Shown: positions 8,697-26,429 of the stretch, one piece after another
How the letters are laid out: each line of letters starts with the position of its first letter
Numbering within the stretch: position 1 is the first letter of the stretch
Source of the DNA: a virus
Virus record (IMG/VR): IMGVR_UViG_3300027770_000162
Coordinates: 1 to 33,919 of that record
DNA length: 33,919 nt
Strand: one strand, 5' to 3'
Notes under the pieces: generated by a model
Told to the model about the DNA's origin: nothing
Seen by the model: the letters and a program-made list of their open reading frames with translations, nothing else
Databases searched by the model: none
Position numbers and translations under genes: made by a program

Positions 8697-8752
8697 CCGA
8701 AGCAGACCAAGCCCTCTCCGACGCCACCCGCATCGAGGACCCCGCGAAATGA
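8693..8752 (+). CDS. 19-residue micro-ORF chained by ATGA overlaps
   Basis: This frame encodes MTEADQALSDATRIEDPAK. Its ATG overlaps the stop of the preceding gene (ATGA) and its own TGA overlaps the ATG of the PAPS-reductase-like gene, the same coupling used elsewhere in this operon. It may be a real acidic micro-protein, or merely a short frame that carries ribosomes to the next gene. Its size forbids family assignment. Confidence 0.4.
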   Translation: MTEADQALSDATRIEDPAK

Positions 8753-9678
8753 CGCCACTGAGTGATGTAACGCTAGACGAAATGGCTGACCGCCTTCTGA
8801 TAAGTTTTTCTGGTGGAGAAACCAGCGCGTATATGACGCGGTGGATTATGCAAAATTGGCGTGAGAGGTACGATGACATCCTTGTTGTGTTCGCCAACAC
8901 AGGTCAGGAGAACGAGCAAACGCTGGAGTTTGTTCACGCCTGCGATGTGGCGTTTGGGTTTGGCACCCGCTGGATAGAGGCGGTGCAATACCCCGGAGAG
9001 CGTAAATCTTCCGGCTTCAAGATTGTGAACTTCGACACGGCCAATCGGGAGGGGGCGCCTTTTGAAGCGTCCATTAAAAAATACGGCATCCCAAACCAAA
9101 AGTTCAAGGACTGCACACGAGGGCTAAAGCAAAAGCCAATCGAAGCCTTCGCGCGGTCCTATGGTTGGGAAAACGGCTCCTACGATCTGGCGATAGGCAT
9201 ACGCGCCGACGAAATAGACCGGGTGTCGGTCAGGGCCTCTGAGCGCCGCATCGTTTACCCTTTGGCGTTTGAACACCCGATGACCAAACCAAAAATAAAT
9301 AGCTGGTGGGCTGACCAGACGTTCCGTTTGGAGTTGAAAGGGTATCAAGGCAACTGCAAATGGTGCTGGAAAAAATCGCTCCGCAAACACCTCACAATCA
9401 TAGCGGAAAACCCAGCGGCCTATGACTTTCCTCGCCGTATGGAGGAAAGATATGGTCTTGTAGGACCTGAGTTTTTGAGAGACCCGCCCTTACCGGCGGG
9501 CTATAAGCGCACATTTTTTAGGGGCAACAAATCGGTTGAGGATTTATTTGCCGAATACGAAACCAAAAAAGGCACGTTTGTTCCCGCTCACGACGACGCA
9601 ATCGTTTTCGATGCCGACCTAGATATGGGTGCCGGGTGCGAGGAAAGCTGCGAAGTTTTTGGGGAAGACGACCAATGA
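8749..9678 (+). CDS. PAPS-reductase-like / N-type ATP pyrophosphatase family protein
   Basis: A 309-residue protein with the PP-loop SGGETS (21-26) after a LLISF strand, then VVFANTGQENEQTL, the typical second strand of phosphoadenosine phosphosulfate reductase-like enzymes. Later come FKDCTRGLKQKP, IGIRADEIDR and a CKWC pair (GNCKWCWKKS), possibly a metal or iron-sulphur ligand. Phage members of this family are widespread and their reactions mostly unproved; proposed roles include sulphur or nucleotide chemistry on DNA or tRNA. No other phosphorothioation genes are present here. The gene is bracketed by the two 32-bp direct repeats at 8641-8672 and 9721-9752. Confidence 0.75.
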   Translation: MTPLSDVTLDEMADRLLISFSGGETSAYMTRWIMQNWRERYDDILVVFANTGQENEQTLEFVHACDVAFGFGTRWIEAVQYPGERKSSGFKIVNFDTANREGAPFEASIKKYGIPNQKFKDCTRGLKQKPIEAFARSYGWENGSYDLAIGIRADEIDRVSVRASERRIVYPLAFEHPMTKPKINSWWADQTFRLELKGYQGNCKWCWKKSLRKHLTIIAENPAAYDFPRRMEERYGLVGPEFLRDPPLPAGYKRTFFRGNKSVEDLFAEYETKKGTFVPAHDDAIVFDADLDMGAGCEESCEVFGEDDQ

Positions 9679-17506: not shown

Positions 17507-17818
17507 CTACCGAAACAAATTGCTGAGAGATTGCATTGGGTGCTGGGCAAAGTCACCAATGGTGGGCTTGGCAAAAACAGAATTCTTGTCAAACTCCTGC
17601 GGCCCACCCGCCTTTGCCGCCTTAATGCCCCGTCCCGCACCGTAGCCTTGAAGCGCCTTGGCAAGCATGGCCGCTCCGCTGGGTTGCGCGCTAATACCTT
17701 TATAAGACGAAGTGGTAATTGGAGACATCGCATCAGCGCCCATGTTTTGAGCGTTTTGCATTGCCGAAAGGCGAGCTTGTTCTTCTGCCGAAAGCGGCAA
17801 TCCCATTGGATAATTCAT
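17507..17818 (-). CDS. Small virion-module protein related to N-terminus of next gene product (103 aa)
   Basis: A 103-residue protein starting MNYPMGLPLSAEEQARLSAM. Residues 38-60 (SYKGISAQPSGAAMLAKALQ) clearly resemble TYKGIAARPSTLGILANAL in the 629-residue protein, including the following GRG. It may be an assembly factor or a third, small internal virion protein. The ATG lies in an overlap with the end of the S74-type tail gene. Confidence 0.6.
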   Translation of the reverse strand: MNYPMGLPLSAEEQARLSAMQNAQNMGADAMSPITTSSYKGISAQPSGAAMLAKALQGYGAGRGIKAAKAGGPQEFDKNSVFAKPTIGDFAQHPMQSLSNLFR

Positions 17819-19086
17819 GCGATTGCTCCGTAATCAACCATCAAGAATCCGCTTGAGTGAACCATGACGGCTTCGGGTTTGACTTTTTGCAATTCTTGCG
17901 CCATCACGCCGCGCTCGCGCCGGTCAAAGATATCGTATTCGTAGATGCCGATTCCAAGCGGGTGAGTGCCAACGCGCACGATGTTCGACTTCAGGCGTTT
18001 GTCAGAAAACATTCCTGCAATTTGCGCGCCAGCGCCCAAAGCAGAACCAATTCCCGCTGCGTTCGATGCGGCTTGATTGGCCTTGATGCCATAAATATCC
18101 ATAGCCGCTTGGCCTTGTTGTTGAACGCCTTGAAACACAGGAGCCGCCGCGACGTTCTGGCCGGTGTACTGCTGGAACTGCGGGTTCTGGATTTGCGAGC
18201 CGCCCATAAGCGCCGCGATCTCGTTGATCGGTTGATTCCGCAAGGCAAGCTGTTGCGCCAGAGATTGCTGAAGCGCGGTGTTGCCAAACTGCGCCCCGCC
18301 CAAGCCTTGATTGTACGCTTGGTTCTGGGCTTGGTTGTACAGGCCAGCGCCAGTAGCGGATTGGCCGAAGTTCTGGCCTTGCGCGGTGTTGTAGAAGCCA
18401 CCAGCGCCAAGCGCCTGATTGAAGCCTTGCTGATTGGCCGCTGTATCAAGGCCAATGCCCTGAAGCGCGGCTTGGGTGTACAGGTCGTTCTGTTGCTCGC
18501 CCTGCGTCCGCATGGAATTGTTGTACGCCTCAGACCCCGGCGTGATGCCTTGGTTAGCTAAACGCTGCTCGTTAGCCGCCCTTGATTGTTCGATCTGCGG
18601 GGCGAGGCGCGACATGATGGCTTGTTGCCCAGTCATTCCAGCGTTGACCGGCATCTGGGCAACGCCAGACAGGTCAAGCCCACTCTGAGCGCCGTACAGG
18701 CCCGCTTGCGGGCCGTAGTTTAGTTGCCCCGGTTGCCCAAGCGACGTTTGCAAATTAGGCAGATTGGCGCTGAACGGCGTGTTGAGGATGTCCTGTGCGT
18801 TGCCAATGCCCTGCTGGGCCACATCGGCAAGGCCACGCTGCACTTCCTGCTGCGACTCAAGGGTAGCTTGCGCGGCGGGCGTGAGCGTCTGGGTGACGGT
18901 GCCTTGCGGAGCGCCGTTAATGCCGGTGTTGGCCCAAGTTACGTTCTGATTGCCATAAGGGCTGATGATATTGGGATTCGACAGCGACGATCCTTGAGCC
19001 GCAGAGGCTTGGTTCGCAACGCCCTGCGCCGTAGCCGCGCCCACATAGTCAGGCGGCGTCGGCGCTCTTGGTGTACTTTTTCCCAT
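17815..19086 (-). CDS. Gln/Asn/Gly-rich tail protein with S74-type chaperone end (423 aa)
   Basis: A 423-residue protein. Residues 1-340 are Ala/Gln/Asn/Gly-rich with degenerate repeats (GFYNTAQGQNFG, GLYNQAQNQAYNQ, GAQFGNTALQQ). The final 60 residues carry the peptidase S74 intramolecular-chaperone signature: FSDKRLKSNI, RGVMAQELQ and VDYGAIA. Full S74 domains cut themselves off by a Ser-Lys dyad after helping fibres trimerise. Here the domain ends right after VDYGAI, so it may be short or non-cleaving. AGGGAACC precedes the ATG at 19086. The start overlaps the acetyltransferase gene by 38 bases. Confidence 0.65.
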   Translation of the reverse strand: MGKSTPRAPTPPDYVGAATAQGVANQASAAQGSSLSNPNIISPYGNQNVTWANTGINGAPQGTVTQTLTPAAQATLESQQEVQRGLADVAQQGIGNAQDILNTPFSANLPNLQTSLGQPGQLNYGPQAGLYGAQSGLDLSGVAQMPVNAGMTGQQAIMSRLAPQIEQSRAANEQRLANQGITPGSEAYNNSMRTQGEQQNDLYTQAALQGIGLDTAANQQGFNQALGAGGFYNTAQGQNFGQSATGAGLYNQAQNQAYNQGLGGAQFGNTALQQSLAQQLALRNQPINEIAALMGGSQIQNPQFQQYTGQNVAAAPVFQGVQQQGQAAMDIYGIKANQAASNAAGIGSALGAGAQIAGMFSDKRLKSNIVRVGTHPLGIGIYEYDIFDRRERGVMAQELQKVKPEAVMVHSSGFLMVDYGAIA

Positions 19087-19492
19087 ATCGGTTCCCTAAG
19101 AAACGGCAGTCGGTTTTCTTCAATGTATACAAGATTATATCACCGTCAGGAGAGGCGTCTTTAATGCGCCCCTCCTCAGTAAAGCCCATCTTCTCAACCA
19201 TCCTAATGCTCTTGGCATTAGCACTGCTGACCGGGGCAATGGCTTTCTCGATGTTGCATACGTTGTATGCGTAATCGAATATCGCCCCGATGAAGGCTGG
19301 AGTAATGCGGTCTTTGATGACGATGTGAACCACCATCGAACGCCTGTTCCAGTTTTCGTAAATGATGCCCGCTATGATCTCTCCGTCTTTTAACAGTCCG
19401 ATAGCTTGAGAACGGTCTGCGAAATATCCCGCATCAAGTTCTCCAGCCACCCAATACCCGATTTCCGGGCCATTTTCTATACGCCAGCCCAT
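19049..19492 (-). CDS. GNAT-family N-acetyltransferase-like protein (147 aa)
   Basis: A 147-residue protein with GNAT features: an EIIAGIIYENW beta strand, AFIGAIFDYAYN, then VSSANAKSIRMVEKMGFTEEG, the classical SxNxxSxxxxEKxGF end of motif A/B in RimJ-type enzymes. An acetyl-CoA-dependent acyl transfer is expected, substrate unknown. The ATG at 19492, with CAGGCGGG before it, overlaps the nozzle gene by 16 bases; an in-frame start at 19522 is an alternative. The C-terminal 20 residues are basic and lie in the overlap with the S74 gene. An enzyme gene amid tail genes is unusual and may modify virion or host proteins. Confidence 0.7.
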   Translation of the reverse strand: MGWRIENGPEIGYWVAGELDAGYFADRSQAIGLLKDGEIIAGIIYENWNRRSMVVHIVIKDRITPAFIGAIFDYAYNVCNIEKAIAPVSSANAKSIRMVEKMGFTEEGRIKDASPDGDIILYTLKKTDCRFLGNRYGKKYTKSADAA

Positions 19493-21042
19493 CCCGCCTG
19501 ATACACTACGTCTGTGGATGCCCATTCGATCTGCAAGCCTTGGCTGGCGCTCTGAAGTTGTGTGCCGCCGCAGTAGCCAATGCCGGTAATCCCGATCCAT
19601 GTATTTTGGATCGTATTGTTGTCTCCCCACAGCCCGCTGTCCCACAGGGCCGTATTCCAAGCCCCAGAAACCGATGGCGTAAAGGTCAGGGGCGCGGTGG
19701 TGTTGGAGGTGTCAAAGTCCACATTCATGCCAACAAAGAGGGCCGGTGAACCGTTTGAGAAGATGGATGGCCGAGCGCGGGTGAAGTACTTCTTAACGCC
19801 CCTCGTGCCAAAATAGTTGAACGCCTGAAGCGCCACCGCAGTAATGTTCGCGCCATCGTCCGCGTAGGTATCGTCCCACGCAACGTAGACAATGCCGGTG
19901 CCGCCGAAATACGGATCGTCGTCAAATATTTCCCAGCAAGTCGCGGGCCAGCCGGTAAATTGTGCCCACGACTTTGTGATCGTGTTCATGACATATTGCT
20001 GCTGTTGGCCGGTTGCCACAGGCACGTTGATCCAGACGGCATTGCGCTTGGCGTTGTAGACAATCTGCCAGCCAACAGCCGCATGGTCGCCGCCATAGCT
20101 AGTGGTCGCCGCCGTAATGGCTCCCTGAATCTTGTTAGACAGGGCTACGCGCGGGTCTAGGCGTGACGACTGTAGCGACCCCGCCATAGGCATCAGGCCG
20201 TCATAGGTAAGGATCAGGAGGTCGCCGCCCCACTTAAGCATACAGCGGGTGCCTATGGGAGAGCCGAGCTTCCAGACGCCGATCAGCGCCCATGTGTTGG
20301 CGCTGGCCGGGTCGGTGCCGCTGTAGACGATGACCTCGCCCGTGCTGGTGATGAAGGCTAGGTTGTCGTCAACACCATAACCGGCATCCAGTGTCCATGT
20401 GTCCAGATCGACAAGGTGACCACCGAACCGCGCCACCGCGCTCAGGTCCACCTTCTGCGCCGCGCCGCCGACCGCGTTGGTCGGCAGATACCACGCCACC
20501 AGCGTGTTTTTCTGAAAGAACCAAACGCGGTTTTTGAACAAGCAGATGTTGGCAAGCGTGGTCGTGGTCACGCCGGTAATGGCTACAGCCGAGGCCGCGT
20601 CCACACGCAACCAAGTCGTGCCGTCCCACAGGATCGGCTTGTCCACACCGTTGACGGCATACAGGTAGGATGTGCCAGCGGTGTTGGTGACGTTGATATA
20701 TTCCCAGATGCCATTGGTCAGACCGCTGACCGCAGCAGCGCCAACCGCGCCAGCCGTTGTGACGTCGTAGAGTTTACCCGCTGATGTGATGGCGTAGAGC
20801 TTGGTGGACCCGCCATACGAATAGGTCATCAGCGTCTGGACTTCGCCGTCTAGGCCGGTGGCGTGTTCCGAGTAGCCGCCACGCAAGACGACGTTACTGA
20901 CGGTCGGGAACATATTGGTTAGCGTTACCGCGTCAGTCGCCTCCATGTTGGCAAAGCTGTCGCGGGCGTTCCAGCCGCCCACGGGGGCGGGCAGGGACTG
21001 TACTTGAGCCGCAGCGCCCTGAACGAGGCTCCTAACGGCCAT
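19477..21042 (-). CDS. Tail nozzle / hub-like protein (521 aa)
   Basis: A 521-residue beta-rich protein starting MAVRSLVQGAAAQVQSLPAP, then VGGWNARDSFANMEATDAV and LTNMFPTVSNVVLRGGYSEH. This opening is common to podovirus tail proteins of the P22 gp10 / T7 gp12 nozzle type, which form beta-propeller-like rings. Repeated strand motifs (KLYAITSAGKLYDV, YLYAVNGVDKPILW, RVWFFQKN) support a propeller. The family link is structural inference. The ATG at 21042 overlaps the adaptor gene by 11 bases; a TTG at 21072 is possible but weaker. Confidence 0.65.
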   Translation of the reverse strand: MAVRSLVQGAAAQVQSLPAPVGGWNARDSFANMEATDAVTLTNMFPTVSNVVLRGGYSEHATGLDGEVQTLMTYSYGGSTKLYAITSAGKLYDVTTAGAVGAAAVSGLTNGIWEYINVTNTAGTSYLYAVNGVDKPILWDGTTWLRVDAASAVAITGVTTTTLANICLFKNRVWFFQKNTLVAWYLPTNAVGGAAQKVDLSAVARFGGHLVDLDTWTLDAGYGVDDNLAFITSTGEVIVYSGTDPASANTWALIGVWKLGSPIGTRCMLKWGGDLLILTYDGLMPMAGSLQSSRLDPRVALSNKIQGAITAATTSYGGDHAAVGWQIVYNAKRNAVWINVPVATGQQQQYVMNTITKSWAQFTGWPATCWEIFDDDPYFGGTGIVYVAWDDTYADDGANITAVALQAFNYFGTRGVKKYFTRARPSIFSNGSPALFVGMNVDFDTSNTTAPLTFTPSVSGAWNTALWDSGLWGDNNTIQNTWIGITGIGYCGGTQLQSASQGLQIEWASTDVVYQAGWAGV

Positions 21043-22477: not shown

Positions 22478-22840
22478 TTATGCGGTGGTGATTGACGCCC
22501 AAGTGGTAGCACTGGGCGCGAAAAGAAGCACAGTCTTGGCGGTGGCAATCGTAAGGCTGGTTGCGCCCGCGTTAATGGTCGAGGAGGTGTCGAACGGGTA
22601 AACCGTGACGGTCTGACCGCTATCGTTGCGGATGCCGACAACCGCGCCAGCTTCCGTGGGTTGGAGCTTTACGCCGGTCGAAGCCGCCGAGGTGGTGATG
22701 GTGTTCCATACCGCCGAAAGCTGCAAAGCAGTAGCCGCCGTGGAGCCGGTAGCAACAAGGCCAACAGCCCCATCGCCGTTGATCGAAATAGAGGCAAGCG
22801 GGGAATTGCCCGAAGCCAGAACGCGAGAGGGGATTGCCAT
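22478..22840 (-). CDS. Beta-rich decoration-like protein (120 aa)
   Basis: A 120-residue Ala/Thr/Ser/Val-rich protein starting MAIPSRVLASGNSPLASISI. It shows repeated short strands (GDGAVGLVATG, VKLQPTEAGAVVGIRNDSG, VTVYPFDTSSTINAGA, KTVLLFAPSATTWASI) and few charged residues. This composition is typical of small jelly-roll or Ig-like head proteins. AAAGGACAC before the ATG at 22840 supports that start over an upstream one at 22882. It lies directly after the glycosyltransferase fusion gene (1 base gap). Confidence 0.6.
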   Translation of the reverse strand: MAIPSRVLASGNSPLASISINGDGAVGLVATGSTAATALQLSAVWNTITTSAASTGVKLQPTEAGAVVGIRNDSGQTVTVYPFDTSSTINAGATSLTIATAKTVLLFAPSATTWASITTA

Positions 22841-22841
22841 G

Positions 22842-24809
22842 TTAGTGTCCTTTTGTCCTAACAAACCATGTGAAGTTGTCACCGAGGTCTAGTTGTAGCC
22901 CATTCGCCGCAACATACTCGTCCACGGCACGTTTCACGCCCCATTGGGGGTAGTCAACATTATCATAATCGTGGCCGCATAGTAAGCCACCGACGCGGAC
23001 CTTACCAGACCACGCTTCGATGTCAGAATAACAGCCTTCGTAGCTGTGGTCTGCGTCAATGAATACGAAGTCCAGACCATCCTCAACGTCTACCGCTGCG
23101 GCCACAGACTTCTTGCGGTGAATGATCGCGCGGTCTGCAAATGGCGCTACCGCGCTCTGCGTCATGCGGAAATAACTTTCCTGCGACTCGTCGCTCAAGG
23201 TCGCATGGTAATCGCCGGATGCCTCAAGGCTTAGGTCATAGTCGCCCCATGAGTCGATCATATGCAGCGTCATATCCGGCCTTGATGCCAGCAGGCGTTC
23301 AGATAGCGATCCGGCAAACACGCCAATCTCTGCGCCAGTGATACTGCCTTGCGGCAGGCGAGAGAGTATCTCACGCGCCCTTTCGTCCACGGCGTTCTCT
23401 GGCAAGCCCTCACGAGCTATGTGCGCCAGCAGGCCATCACCAGCCACCGTGATGATGCCGGTGTACCGCTGGGCATATTCAATGAAATCCTGCGCCTGAC
23501 CCGCCATCCACGGGGCGCATTTGAATGTGCGCTCTCCGTAAAGTACGTCCATCACAGGCTCGCTATTGTTCCATGACTGCTGGTAAGCATGGTGGTCGTC
23601 GCCAGTGTAGCAGCTATCAACGCCGAACAGGTGCAGGGTGCGGCAACCGCCAAGCTCCGCGAGTAGCATGGCCTTCAGGGCCACCGTGGTTCCTGCGCCC
23701 AGAAGATGCACGGGGCGCTCGACTTCATCCCTTAGAAGCCCCTCAACGCCCTCAGACTGACAATGAAACAGCGTAACCTGTTGGCCGTCCAGCAAGTCAA
23801 ATATCGCCGGGTCGCATTGTGAGCCGATATAATAGCGGATATGCGGCTGCGGCTTTGAAACGAACGCTGCGTTTTCGGGGCGGGCGTCTAGGATAACGTG
23901 CGCGTCTGGAGTGATGCCTTGGGTCATAAGGTAGTTCGCCGCGCCATTCAGCGCCCATACTTCCTGCCCTATGCTTTGCCGACGCCTCAAGACGTTCAAC
24001 TCGCCCTTTAGGGACGGCCCGCCCCCGACGATGCAAACCTGACGGTCGTGGTGCTTCCAGTCAAAATCAAACCACGGAAGGTCGCGCTCGCAAGCGCCCA
24101 CGATGTTGTCGTGGATTTGCTGCTTGTCGGTATTGCACACCGCATCAAGCTCGACGCGGGTGATGCCGCCCTCCTTCCATACCGCAGGAACCCAGCCGGT
24201 AGGAACCTCGTGCGGGCGTGGATTGCCGTGGAACACCACAACCGACGCCTTGTTGGGCGCAGCGCCACCAGAAACTTTGTAGCTAACAAAGGAGTCGGGC
24301 AGAATGGTTTGCCAGATGTCGGGTTTGCCGGTGTAAGCGGTTTCAATCCACGCTTGGTCGCCGCCTATGATTTGGGGCATCTGAGAGCGCACCCAGTACA
24401 TCCAAATGTCTTGCGTCTTGGGCGTCACACGCCACGCCATAACAGACGACTGGAGGCCGTGGGCGCGGTAGAAGTCCCGCAGGATGGCGAAGTCCCCGGA
24501 ATAGTCAGCAACCGCGTCCAGACGCCCTGTGATGACCGTATCGAGGTCCAGATACAGCACACGCTCTCCGTCCGCGAAAACGCCAGCCTTGAACAGCGCA
24601 AGTTTGTTCCACCAGCCCCGGATGCCGGGAACGGGCAGGGGGCGCACTTCTACGTTGGGGCCGTAATCTCCGTCTTCGTCGGTGAAGACAATGAACTTGC
24701 CGGGGTAGCCCTCAAGCAAGTTGCGGCGCACCATATCGTTCAGGATGCGGACGTACTCGACGCCGCGCCCAAGATAGTTTCCTGCGTTAACGCAGACGAC
24801 GTTTAACAT
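22842..24809 (-). CDS. Three-domain glycosyltransferase / MptE-like (DUF115) / methyltransferase fusion
   Basis: A 655-residue fusion. Residues 1-215 form a glycosyltransferase-A-like domain with strand LNVVCVNAGNYLG, a nucleotide-sugar D-x-D in LYLDLDT (88-90), and GGDQAWIETAY (149-159), as in GT8-like enzymes. Residues 256-465 resemble the MptE-like/DUF115 domain of motility-associated flagellin-modifying proteins: CIVGGGPSLK (259-268), VWALNGAANYL, PDAHVILDAR, LLGAGTTVALKA and LHLFGVDSCY. Residues 491-655 are a class I SAM methyltransferase (type 24): GAEIGVFAGSLS, FIDADHSYEG (583-592) and GLLCGHDYD. It probably glycosylates and methylates a surface glycan or virion protein. GAGGAATC precedes the ATG at 24809. 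It is uninterrupted and sits between decoration-like genes. Confidence 0.75.
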   Translation of the reverse strand: MLNVVCVNAGNYLGRGVEYVRILNDMVRRNLLEGYPGKFIVFTDEDGDYGPNVEVRPLPVPGIRGWWNKLALFKAGVFADGERVLYLDLDTVITGRLDAVADYSGDFAILRDFYRAHGLQSSVMAWRVTPKTQDIWMYWVRSQMPQIIGGDQAWIETAYTGKPDIWQTILPDSFVSYKVSGGAAPNKASVVVFHGNPRPHEVPTGWVPAVWKEGGITRVELDAVCNTDKQQIHDNIVGACERDLPWFDFDWKHHDRQVCIVGGGPSLKGELNVLRRRQSIGQEVWALNGAANYLMTQGITPDAHVILDARPENAAFVSKPQPHIRYYIGSQCDPAIFDLLDGQQVTLFHCQSEGVEGLLRDEVERPVHLLGAGTTVALKAMLLAELGGCRTLHLFGVDSCYTGDDHHAYQQSWNNSEPVMDVLYGERTFKCAPWMAGQAQDFIEYAQRYTGIITVAGDGLLAHIAREGLPENAVDERAREILSRLPQGSITGAEIGVFAGSLSERLLASRPDMTLHMIDSWGDYDLSLEASGDYHATLSDESQESYFRMTQSAVAPFADRAIIHRKKSVAAAVDVEDGLDFVFIDADHSYEGCYSDIEAWSGKVRVGGLLCGHDYDNVDYPQWGVKRAVDEYVAANGLQLDLGDNFTWFVRTKGH

Positions 24810-24831
24810 GATTCCTCGCAATGGAAGTCTA

Positions 24832-24851
24832 CGCCCCCCCGAAGGGGGGCG
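24832..24851 (-). terminator. 8-bp GC hairpin with TTCG tetraloop
   Basis: On the minus strand CGCCCCCC pairs perfectly with GGGGGGCG around a TTCG loop, an exceptionally stable RNA hairpin in the direction of late transcription. It lies 9 bases after the stop of the decoration-like gene at 24861 and 22 bases before the fusion-gene ATG. No U-tract follows, so partial termination or 3-prime-end protection of the coat transcript is as likely as full termination. Confidence 0.65.
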
Positions 24852-24860
24852 CAGGGCATA

Positions 24861-25403
24861 CTAGGTGGTCGGGCCTTGCATATGCGGACGGTTCATGGAG
24901 CAAACCACGGTGGAGGTCGTGGCAGTCACGGTCGTCAGGTTAGCAGAAGCCAAACCAAGGACGTTCTTACCAGCAGCCGAGGTCTGCATCAGGCGACCAG
25001 TCGTGGCCGATTGATACATACGACGGGTGCCAGCCGGGTCCACCTTTACGGCGGTTTTCTTCACAACGGCGAGGCCGCTGATCTGATACCAACCGAAGGA
25101 CGCCGCCAGATTGGCGGACATCGCGACGGCGACAGGCTGCGACAGGTTAGCCGTATTGGGGCTAAGAGCCGTCTGGTAGGTGGTCGGGCTGTAGGTGACA
25201 ACCGAGCCAACAACCGTGGACGCCACGCCGACAAGGAGAATGAACTCCCCTTCGCCGTAGGTCGGGTCGAAAGCGCGGGCAACCATACCCAACATCGTCG
25301 GCGGGGTGGGAACGGCAGAGGAGCCATTCGCCATCGTTACGCCAGCATCGGTATTAGCGATCTGGAGCAGGCCGACTTTGGGTTCGTCAAAAGTATAAGC
25401 CAT
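24861..25403 (-). CDS. Head decoration-like structural protein (180 aa)
   Basis: A 180-residue protein starting MAYTFDEPKVGLLQIANTDA, rich in Ala/Thr/Val with few charges. Strands such as FILLVGVASTVVGSVVTYS and SFGWYQISGLAVVKKTAVKV suggest a beta fold. It lies immediately downstream of the coat gene and just before the terminator-like hairpin, the usual position of a capsid decoration or stabilising protein. No family is certain. Confidence 0.6.
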   Translation of the reverse strand: MAYTFDEPKVGLLQIANTDAGVTMANGSSAVPTPPTMLGMVARAFDPTYGEGEFILLVGVASTVVGSVVTYSPTTYQTALSPNTANLSQPVAVAMSANLAASFGWYQISGLAVVKKTAVKVDPAGTRRMYQSATTGRLMQTSAAGKNVLGLASANLTTVTATTSTVVCSMNRPHMQGPTT

Positions 25404-25427: not shown

Positions 25428-26429
25428 TTAGGCGATCAGGACTCCTTGGAATTGCGACCCTGAGCAAGTCAGGTTACCGGCCCATCCGATGAGTTTGACG
25501 ATGGCATCTTGGTTGACCGATTGACGTTCGCCACCAATGGGGACGAAGTTGCGATCCACATGGGGCCGGAACATCAAGTATTTGGTGTTCAGGAAGAACA
25601 TGTGGTTAGCGGTAGCGGCAGCGCCGATACCACCGTCAAGCACAACGTCAGAAGCCATACCAGCGCCGTAGTACTTCAGCGAGGCAAAGCCAGCGCCAGC
25701 CATCGACGAACCGGAGTCCGAGATACGCTGGATGGATTGCAGGGACTGAAGGTACAGGCGGTAGTAGTTGTTATCCGCCACGATCAGGTCAGGTTTGTCG
25801 GTGCCACGGATAAGCTGGACGGCCAGAGCATCCATGTATTGCTGGATGTTCGAAGCGGTCGTAGCAGAGCCGCCGTTCGTCACAGCCGAATAGGCGATGG
25901 ATTGCCAGAACGAGAAGGACGCACGGTTGATGCCGCCGTAGGTGCCGGTGGTCGGAGCATCGGGAACAGCAGCGCCCAGTCCGGTAAGGTTTTTACCGCT
26001 GTTGCCAGTGCCGTCCAGATACAAGTCACCGCTGATACGGTTAGCCAGTTGGGCTTCGGCAACATTCATACGACCGTCAAGCAGGTCGATGATGGCTTCC
26101 TTACCGCTGTTCTGGATCATTTCCAGACCAGAGATGGTCACCGCCGAAGCGTACTGGGTGATGGAGAACTGAGCCGCCGAGATCGGCGAGTTCTGGGACA
26201 CGTTCAGCACTTCGTAACCGGAGTAGCTGTTCGTGTTGTTGGTGGTGCTGTCGTTGTACATGATTTCTTGCAAAATCACGTTACCGCCAGAGAACGTCTT
26301 GACGTTCCCGCGATCCTTCAAACGGCGAAGGAGCGCGTTGTTGTTCGTCACGTTGTCGGCCAGCTCACCAGAGCGAGATTGGATATTTGTCGCAATGATG
26401 TCGCTGATCGAGCTATTGGCGAAAGCCAT
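25428..26429 (-). CDS. Major capsid (coat) protein (333 aa)
   Basis: A 333-residue protein starting MAFANSSISDIIATNIQSRS. It has LADNVTNNNALLRRLKDRGN, FSGGNVILQEIMY, AANHMFFLNTKYLMFRP and IGGERQSVNQDAIVKLIGWA, phrases seen in a widespread group of podovirus and siphovirus coat proteins assumed to have the HK97 fold. There is no N-terminal delta domain of HK97 type; a separate scaffold is encoded just upstream. Length and gene order (scaffold, coat, decoration) support the call. The gap to the scaffold gene is 20 bases. Confidence 0.8.
   Translation of the reverse strand: MAFANSSISDIIATNIQSRSGELADNVTNNNALLRRLKDRGNVKTFSGGNVILQEIMYNDSTTNNTNSYSGYEVLNVSQNSPISAAQFSITQYASAVTISGLEMIQNSGKEAIIDLLDGRMNVAEAQLANRISGDLYLDGTGNSGKNLTGLGAAVPDAPTTGTYGGINRASFSFWQSIAYSAVTNGGSATTASNIQQYMDALAVQLIRGTDKPDLIVADNNYYRLYLQSLQSIQRISDSGSSMAGAGFASLKYYGAGMASDVVLDGGIGAAATANHMFFLNTKYLMFRPHVDRNFVPIGGERQSVNQDAIVKLIGWAGNLTCSGSQFQGVLIA

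Follow-up and report, generated by a model that had tools for sequence, protein, structure and literature searches.

Why should a phage carry, among the genes of its head, one gene that joins a glycosyltransferase-like, an MptE-like/DUF115 and a methyltransferase-like domain, and what would the product of such a gene modify? The phage is uncultured, short-tailed and from freshwater, and in the window (the whole stretch of 33,919 nucleotides that was analysed) the three-domain gene adjoins capsid and decoration genes.

The three-domain gene and its neighborhood

The original prediction described a single uninterrupted frame with three domains and named no strand. The gene lies on the minus strand (Table 1); the plus-strand reading of 22842–24809 contains many stops and is not an open frame. 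That the frame is single and intact was confirmed by homologues of the whole 655-residue protein and by purifying selection, and all of the predicted motifs were found in their expected places: D88-L89-D90, GGGPSL at residues 262–267, EIGVFAG at 494–500, and FIDADHSYEG at 583–592. The proposed location among virion genes also holds, with the same-strand order being portal, scaffold-position gene, major capsid gene, deco25, and then the enzyme gene. The deco25 frame, which had been placed downstream of the enzyme gene, is actually upstream (5′) of it. A homologue of deco25 in Mx8 (∼42% identity) is annotated as 'major virion structural protein'.

Table 1. Features of the enzyme locus, in positions of the window
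Feature	Position	Strand	Description and evidence
Three-domain gene	22842..24809	minus	655 aa; ATG at 24809, stop 22844-22842
GT-A / GT8-like glycosyltransferase domain	24165..24809	minus	Residues 1-215, DLD 88-90; PHROG 1962, Foldseek glycogenin, P1 PmgQ/P7 HdmD
MptE-like/DUF115 (Maf-type) domain	23355..24164	minus	Residues 216-485; Pfam PF01973, profile and Foldseek matches to Maf 5mu5
SAM-dependent, probably sugar O-methyltransferase domain	22845..23354	minus	Residues 486-655; Pfam PF13578, Foldseek MeT1, NovP, MycF, SpnH
Major capsid protein	25428..26429	minus	NF033394 capsid_maj_Podo 2.6e-88; PHROG 9953
deco25, decoration-like virion protein, 180 aa	24861..25403	minus	PHROG 29386 'virion structural protein' 8.5e-23
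Small Ser/Thr-rich protein, probably a virion protein, 3′ of the enzyme gene	22478..22840	minus	Weaker acceptor candidate
Strong hairpin between deco25 and the enzyme gene	24829..24854	minus	11-bp stem, TTCG loop

Hairpins of other sequence occupy the place of the window hairpin in five related loci (L006, L007, L097, L181, and L311), and three further loci (L098, L127, and L166) have no hairpin there, with the deco25 and enzyme genes nearly abutting. The hairpin may lower expression of the enzyme relative to the structural genes. Near the enzyme gene, no promoter-like or terminator-like sites were found above chance. Elsewhere in the window, a GNAT acetyltransferase-like frame was recognized by eye in the tail/ejection module (19049–19660, minus strand), and GNAT genes are annotated at the equivalent place in Stenotrophomonas phage BUCT555 and Bradyrhizobium phage ppBjS10J-1. 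The window also encodes a virion protein with a terminal Peptidase_S74 (endosialidase chaperone) domain (17815–19086, minus strand; 1.2e-5) and, in the early region, a PAPS-reductase-like protein (8749–9678, plus strand; 5e-5).

Folds and profile matches of the three domains

Pfam assigned MptE-like (PF01973) to residues 255–403 (2.8e-17; 63.5 bits vs a gathering score of 34.6) and Methyltransf_24 (PF13578) to residues 494–615 (3e-11, above the cut-off). It gave no match for the N-terminal domain, of which residues 32–212 were matched by PHROG 1962, 'glycosyltransferase', at 3.3e-28. The NCBIfam search with the three-domain enzyme gave no match. Tblastn searches of cultured phages returned partial relatives only: the glycosyltransferase domain is ∼30% identical to PmgQ of P1 and HdmD of P7, the methyltransferase domain resembles a Synechococcus phage protein, and the DUF115 domain had no match among 50,697 cultured-phage records. 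A search of the literature on the function of PmgQ found nothing informative.

An AlphaFold model of the enzyme, built from 19 window and locus sequences, had a mean pLDDT of 81 and a pTM of 0.61. When the model was compared with the PDB using Foldseek, the N-terminal part matched the GT8 enzyme glycogenin (6eqj, 1.6e-6), the middle part matched the Maf glycosyltransferase 5mu5 (2.7e-7), and the C-terminal part matched MeT1 (8e-9), NovP, MycF, SpnH, and CalS11, mostly sugar O-methyltransferases; the Foldseek table holds no query ranges, and its matches were allocated to domains from the sequence matches. The GT-A and methyltransferase folds, which structure prediction had been proposed to check, are therefore present in the model, and the three domain assignments stand by profile as well as by fold. 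A search of the PDB with the DUF115 profile placed Maf 5mu5 first (1e-12) and archaeal MptE 8sd5 second (3e-5), with a weak match to the sialyltransferase Cst-II (0.74), in agreement with a published account in which the central domain of Maf resembles that enzyme (PMC11339370). The N-terminal Rossmann-like and C-terminal helical domains of Maf itself were not found. The flanks are instead GT-A and SAM-methyltransferase domains, so the phage protein is a member of the DUF115 superfamily and not a Maf orthologue.

Conservation and exchange of the enzyme gene

Five homologues of the whole frame are 73–98% identical to it, and dN/dS, calculated against four homologues at 73–78% identity, is 0.08–0.17 in every domain. 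All three domains are thus under purifying selection. Full three-domain homologues with 48–53% identity adjoin capsid genes in phages that are far more distant and, together with the close homologues and low dN/dS, they indicate that the three-domain frame did not arise by chance. Residues E494, G496, G500, D519, D585, D587, H588, and D614 are invariant in nine divergent homologues, which preserves the SAM-binding motif E494xGxxxG and the acidic motif of the methyltransferase domain. The DXD motif of the glycosyltransferase domain, which is DLD in the window enzyme, is not universal in the family: it is DLS or DLG in L097, L098, L181, and L187, and the pattern finds none in five homologues. 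Given the degenerate motif in at least four proteins, the glycosyltransferase step may have been lost in some homologues.

Among close relatives, dS is 1.1–2.1 for the enzyme, 0.4–1.0 for deco25, and close to 0.5 for the capsid gene; in the comparison with L013 it is 1.6–1.9 for the enzyme vs 0.40 for deco25. Enzyme alleles are therefore swapped faster than their neighbors and also independently of deco25, and the enzyme locus behaves as a variable island.

Module shuffling at the capsid slot

Viral contigs were collected in four scans, each comprising 80 sequences, with some contigs recurring: capsid-anchored relatives, best DUF115 matches, deco25 matches, and distant capsid matches. The DUF115 gene lies directly after deco25 in loci from all four scans, and among the best 80 DUF115 matches it is immediately preceded by deco25 in every contig that extends far enough upstream. 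Hundreds of environmental contigs of Mx8-type podoviruses have a DUF115 gene in the slot behind their major capsid and decoration-like genes, and the linkage of DUF115 to capsid and decoration genes thus extends across many phages. The genomic survey suggested by the original prediction had the anticipated outcome, since the three-domain order recurs next to capsid genes in distant phages.

The order of the window enzyme (GT-DUF115-MT24) was found in 27 ORFs, some of them from contigs that were fetched twice, including phages with a capsid protein of only 33–58% identity. Other combinations are GT-DUF115 with an FkbM methyltransferase (L183, L201, and L266), GT-DUF115 without a methyltransferase (L199 and L217), a GT2 plus GT-DUF115 (L219), the reversed order DUF115-GT (L210), DUF115-GT-B (L285 and L315), and DUF115-MT25-type (39 ORFs). 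DUF115 also occurs alone, once apparently through in-frame loss of the methyltransferase (L027 vs L024). In L037, L072, and L075, the activities are split into DUF115, GT-B-like, small methyltransferase, and GT8-like genes, in which the 'GT-B-like' label of a 278-aa protein was given by eye and Pfam gives no match. L304 has an additional hexapeptide-repeat transferase gene. DUF115 is hence the constant part of the slot, and its glycosyltransferase and methyltransferase partners are swapped, fused, or split.

A second cassette, located between terminase and portal, encodes a small Ala/Ser/Thr-rich protein, a glycosyltransferase of PHROG 1962, and a further enzyme. It is carried by phages with DUF115 alone, namely L033 (3044–4543), L064, L070, and L086, and also by L063 and L067, in which the slot is cut off. 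Pfam identifies this further enzyme as an FkbM methyltransferase in L033 and L070, and in L063 it matches a PHROG methyltransferase. None of the 12 GT-fused and MT25-fused phages has a separate glycosyltransferase gene. In a Shinella pollutisoli prophage (L319, 7998–9226), the only relative in bacterial genome contigs with both activities, the glycosyltransferase and MT24 are encoded by a pair of overlapping genes located between portal and scaffold, in a Gp13-like capsid module that is unrelated to the window capsid. Together, the second cassette and the split Shinella genes indicate that the same activities have repeatedly been drawn to head genes, either fused or split.

The capsid region of the relatives contains further elements. 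Group I introns (Rfam RF00028) are present in the major capsid gene of freshwater relatives (L103, 2969–3193; L111, 3930–4170; L152, 594–817; L165, 1802–2025), and the capsid genes of L105, L108, L115, and L154 have gaps without an Rfam match. HNH-endonuclease-like genes lie between capsid and deco25 in L021 (4625–5080), L023 (5008–5463), and L142 (4970–5428).

The candidate glycan acceptor

Two Ser/Thr-rich proteins, 24861–25403 (deco25) and 22478–22840, had been named as candidate acceptors, and linkage favors the first and disfavors the second. In two capsid-anchored scans, neither of which selects for DUF115, a deco25- or deco159-type gene was present in 56 of 58 DUF115-bearing slots vs 24 of 66 DUF115-less slots, with the counts being phylogenetically non-independent. 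Nearly all DUF115 loci thus have a decoration gene (L263 and L264 have neither type), but the converse is false: in many distant phages deco25 is present and DUF115 is absent, so modification is not required for deco25 as such.

The pairwise distances of DUF115 correlate with those of the decoration protein at 0.71. The corresponding values are lower for p21894, which is encoded on the other flank (0.48), for a tail protein (0.41), and for the major capsid protein (MCP; 0.30), and the DUF115–decoration correlation given MCP distance is 0.67. In the 46 MCP-close loci, the correlation is 0.81 for the decoration protein vs 0.48 for p21894 (CI of the difference 0.19–0.53), and in all 70 loci the CI of this difference is −0.01 to 0.33, which touches zero. 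Physical adjacency alone yields some co-divergence, and the correlation is therefore taken as support and not as proof. The Ser/Thr content of deco25 is 20.6% with DUF115 vs 16.8% without it, a difference that is confounded by clade and carries little weight. The AlphaFold model of deco25 (mean pLDDT 53.5) is too poor for judging acceptor sites, and the PDB profile search with deco25 gave no match.

The 22478–22840 protein is present in the DUF115-less loci L030, L034, L039, L041, and L048 and is missing from the majority of divergent three-domain loci, and for these reasons it was demoted as the main acceptor. Longer homologues of this protein with a C-terminal domain occur in L059 (4862–5689) and L064 (9995–10813); the domain in L059 weakly resembles BclA_C, a trimeric exosporium fibre tip (4.6e-4, below the cut-off), which suggests a head fibre.

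Decoration linkage, co-divergence, and repeated fusion and splitting at head genes all support the part of the original prediction that placed the target in the virion, for which glycosylation itself would be the implied modification. The acceptor is most probably deco25.

Proposed function and alternative readings

From the folds, catalytic motifs, and genomic linkage, we infer, with somewhat more confidence than doubt, that the protein is soluble and belongs to the virion assembly module, where it builds a glycan in three steps, glycosylating a virion surface protein, with deco25 favored, and O-methylating the sugar. Such an enzyme would be cytosolic, co-produced with the structural proteins, and would act before or during assembly. 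Most probably, either the Maf-type DUF115 domain or the GT-A domain would attach the first sugar to Ser/Thr of the surface protein, the favored acceptor being the deco25 product encoded immediately upstream, and whichever transferase domain did not start the glycan would extend it. The C-terminal domain would then O-methylate the terminal sugar. The host would supply the donor sugars, because no sugar-nucleotide pathway was recognized among the window proteins scanned. The modification might alter the outside of the particle in ways that bear on adsorption, grazing, or defence, or it might protect the capsid.

The enzyme could alternatively act late in infection on flagellin or a surface glycan of the host, in a manner resembling serotype conversion or directed against superinfection, and owe its position in the head operon to timing alone; glycans on the host surface are a frequent target of phage glycosyltransferases, and PHROG lists the glycosyltransferase family under moron/host takeover. 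Bacterial DUF115 proteins do modify flagellin (PMC11339370). We nevertheless consider a host target rather unlikely, in view of the position of the DUF115 gene at capsid and decoration genes in many phage lineages, its co-divergence with deco25, and the presence of glycosyltransferase and methyltransferase homologues among the head genes of the unrelated Shinella prophage; furthermore, gtrA/gtrB-like partners were not recognized among the window proteins scanned.

The head operon might also be a tolerant insertion spot and the gene auxiliary cargo (a moron) that is unrelated to virion proteins, in line with its high dS and frequent exchange and with the insertion of HNH genes in the same slot. 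This would leave unexplained why DUF115, unlike the HNH genes, recurs in hundreds of contigs as a constant element, at a single position and in an unchanged order behind the decoration gene, and why slots without DUF115 less often have a decoration gene, which makes mere cargo an improbable reading.

Hypermodification of DNA, in which the glycosyltransferase would act on a modified base and the methyltransferase on DNA, is very improbable, since the methyltransferase domain is structurally nearest to sugar O-methyltransferases and is Methyltransf_24 by Pfam, no base-hydroxymethylating or thymidylate-synthase-like gene was recognized among the window proteins scanned, and DUF115 is not known to have a role in DNA modification. 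The points in its favor are the PHROG 2675 label, DNA methyltransferase, and the ability of phage glycosyltransferases to glycosylate DNA, as cited in PMC12619734. It is scarcely conceivable that the DUF115 domain works as a genuine 6-hydroxymethylpterin pyrophosphokinase of the MptE kind and that the protein serves cofactor metabolism, as the Pfam name of the domain and its second-ranked MptE match (3e-5) might suggest, because the Maf profile score is far better (1e-12), the DUF115-type structure that Foldseek places among its best matches is Maf, and a fusion to glycosyltransferase and sugar-methyltransferase domains would be senseless for pterins.

A glycan-building enzyme of the virion thus remains our preferred reading, and the shuffled versions found at the same place in hundreds of related phages suggest that these phages paint sugars onto their own particles. 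The capsid slot would then be a variable glycosylation locus with DUF115 as its constant part and interchangeable glycosyltransferase and methyltransferase partners. More tentatively, and with doubt outweighing confidence, we propose that a large environmental lineage of Mx8-type podoviruses carries a capsid-adjacent, fast-exchanging glycosylation locus with a Maf-type core and swappable partners, through which the decoration protein of each phage would be coated with sugars of its own; the locus would then be the equivalent in phages of the chlorovirus system for capsid glycans and an instance of Maf-type protein glycosylation outside flagella. If this were true, sugar coating would not be peculiar to mycobacteriophages: it would be widespread among abundant freshwater phages, modular, and quick to change. 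Maf-type protein O-glycosylation would extend beyond flagellin, and the locus would be a source of new protein-glycosylating and sugar-methylating enzymes. The model specifies both the acceptor (deco25) and the enzyme, and is therefore testable without phage isolation.

Comparison with known systems

Virion glycosylation itself is known, but this type of enzyme and its capsid-linked shuffling locus appear to be undescribed: the literature searched contained no description of either, in agreement with the original prediction, whose author knew of no system with exactly this three-domain order in a short-tailed phage. Two BFVD entries from uncultured Caudovirales (A0A6J5PVH5 and A0A6J7XC21; 685–700 aa) are 34–40% identical to the enzyme over long alignments and, judged by sequence, very likely belong to the same protein family; they are annotated as 'MptE-like' by domain name only and have no assigned function. 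The likeness to P1 PmgQ and P7 HdmD (PHROG 1962) is one of homology limited to the glycosyltransferase domain, and the recorded function of these proteins is only putative.

The DUF115 domain is homologous by profile and fold to that of the Maf flagellin glycosyltransferases (M. magneticum 5mu5 and C. botulinum Maf). Maf is, however, a bacterial flagellin enzyme with its own N- and C-terminal domains (PMC11339370), whereas the phage enzyme has GT-A and methyltransferase flanks and is encoded in a head operon. Mycobacteriophages (Che8 and relatives; Freeman et al. 2023, as cited in PMC11256854 and PMC12619734) encode glycosyltransferases and have glycans on capsid and tail proteins. They differ in having separate glycosyltransferase genes, which in Maravista, a related phage, are located towards the 3′ end of the genome, and the passages that describe them do not mention a Maf-type fusion.

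The nearest system that works in a like manner is A064R of PBCV-1, a 638-aa protein with GT-A, transferase, and methyltransferase domains that builds and methylates the end of the capsid glycan (PMC9614988). The two proteins are of similar size (∼640 aa) and share an N-terminal GT-A domain, a middle transferase of an unusual family, and a C-terminal SAM methyltransferase. An unnamed 638-aa BFVD entry (M1IF74) gave a weak whole-length fold match to the phage enzyme. PBCV-1 differs in being a eukaryotic algal virus, the middle domain of A064R has been described as a new glycosyltransferase family and not as DUF115, and its acceptor is an N-glycosylated major capsid protein. We regard A064R, by analogy and with no claim of shared ancestry, as a parallel of the function that the phage enzyme would have.
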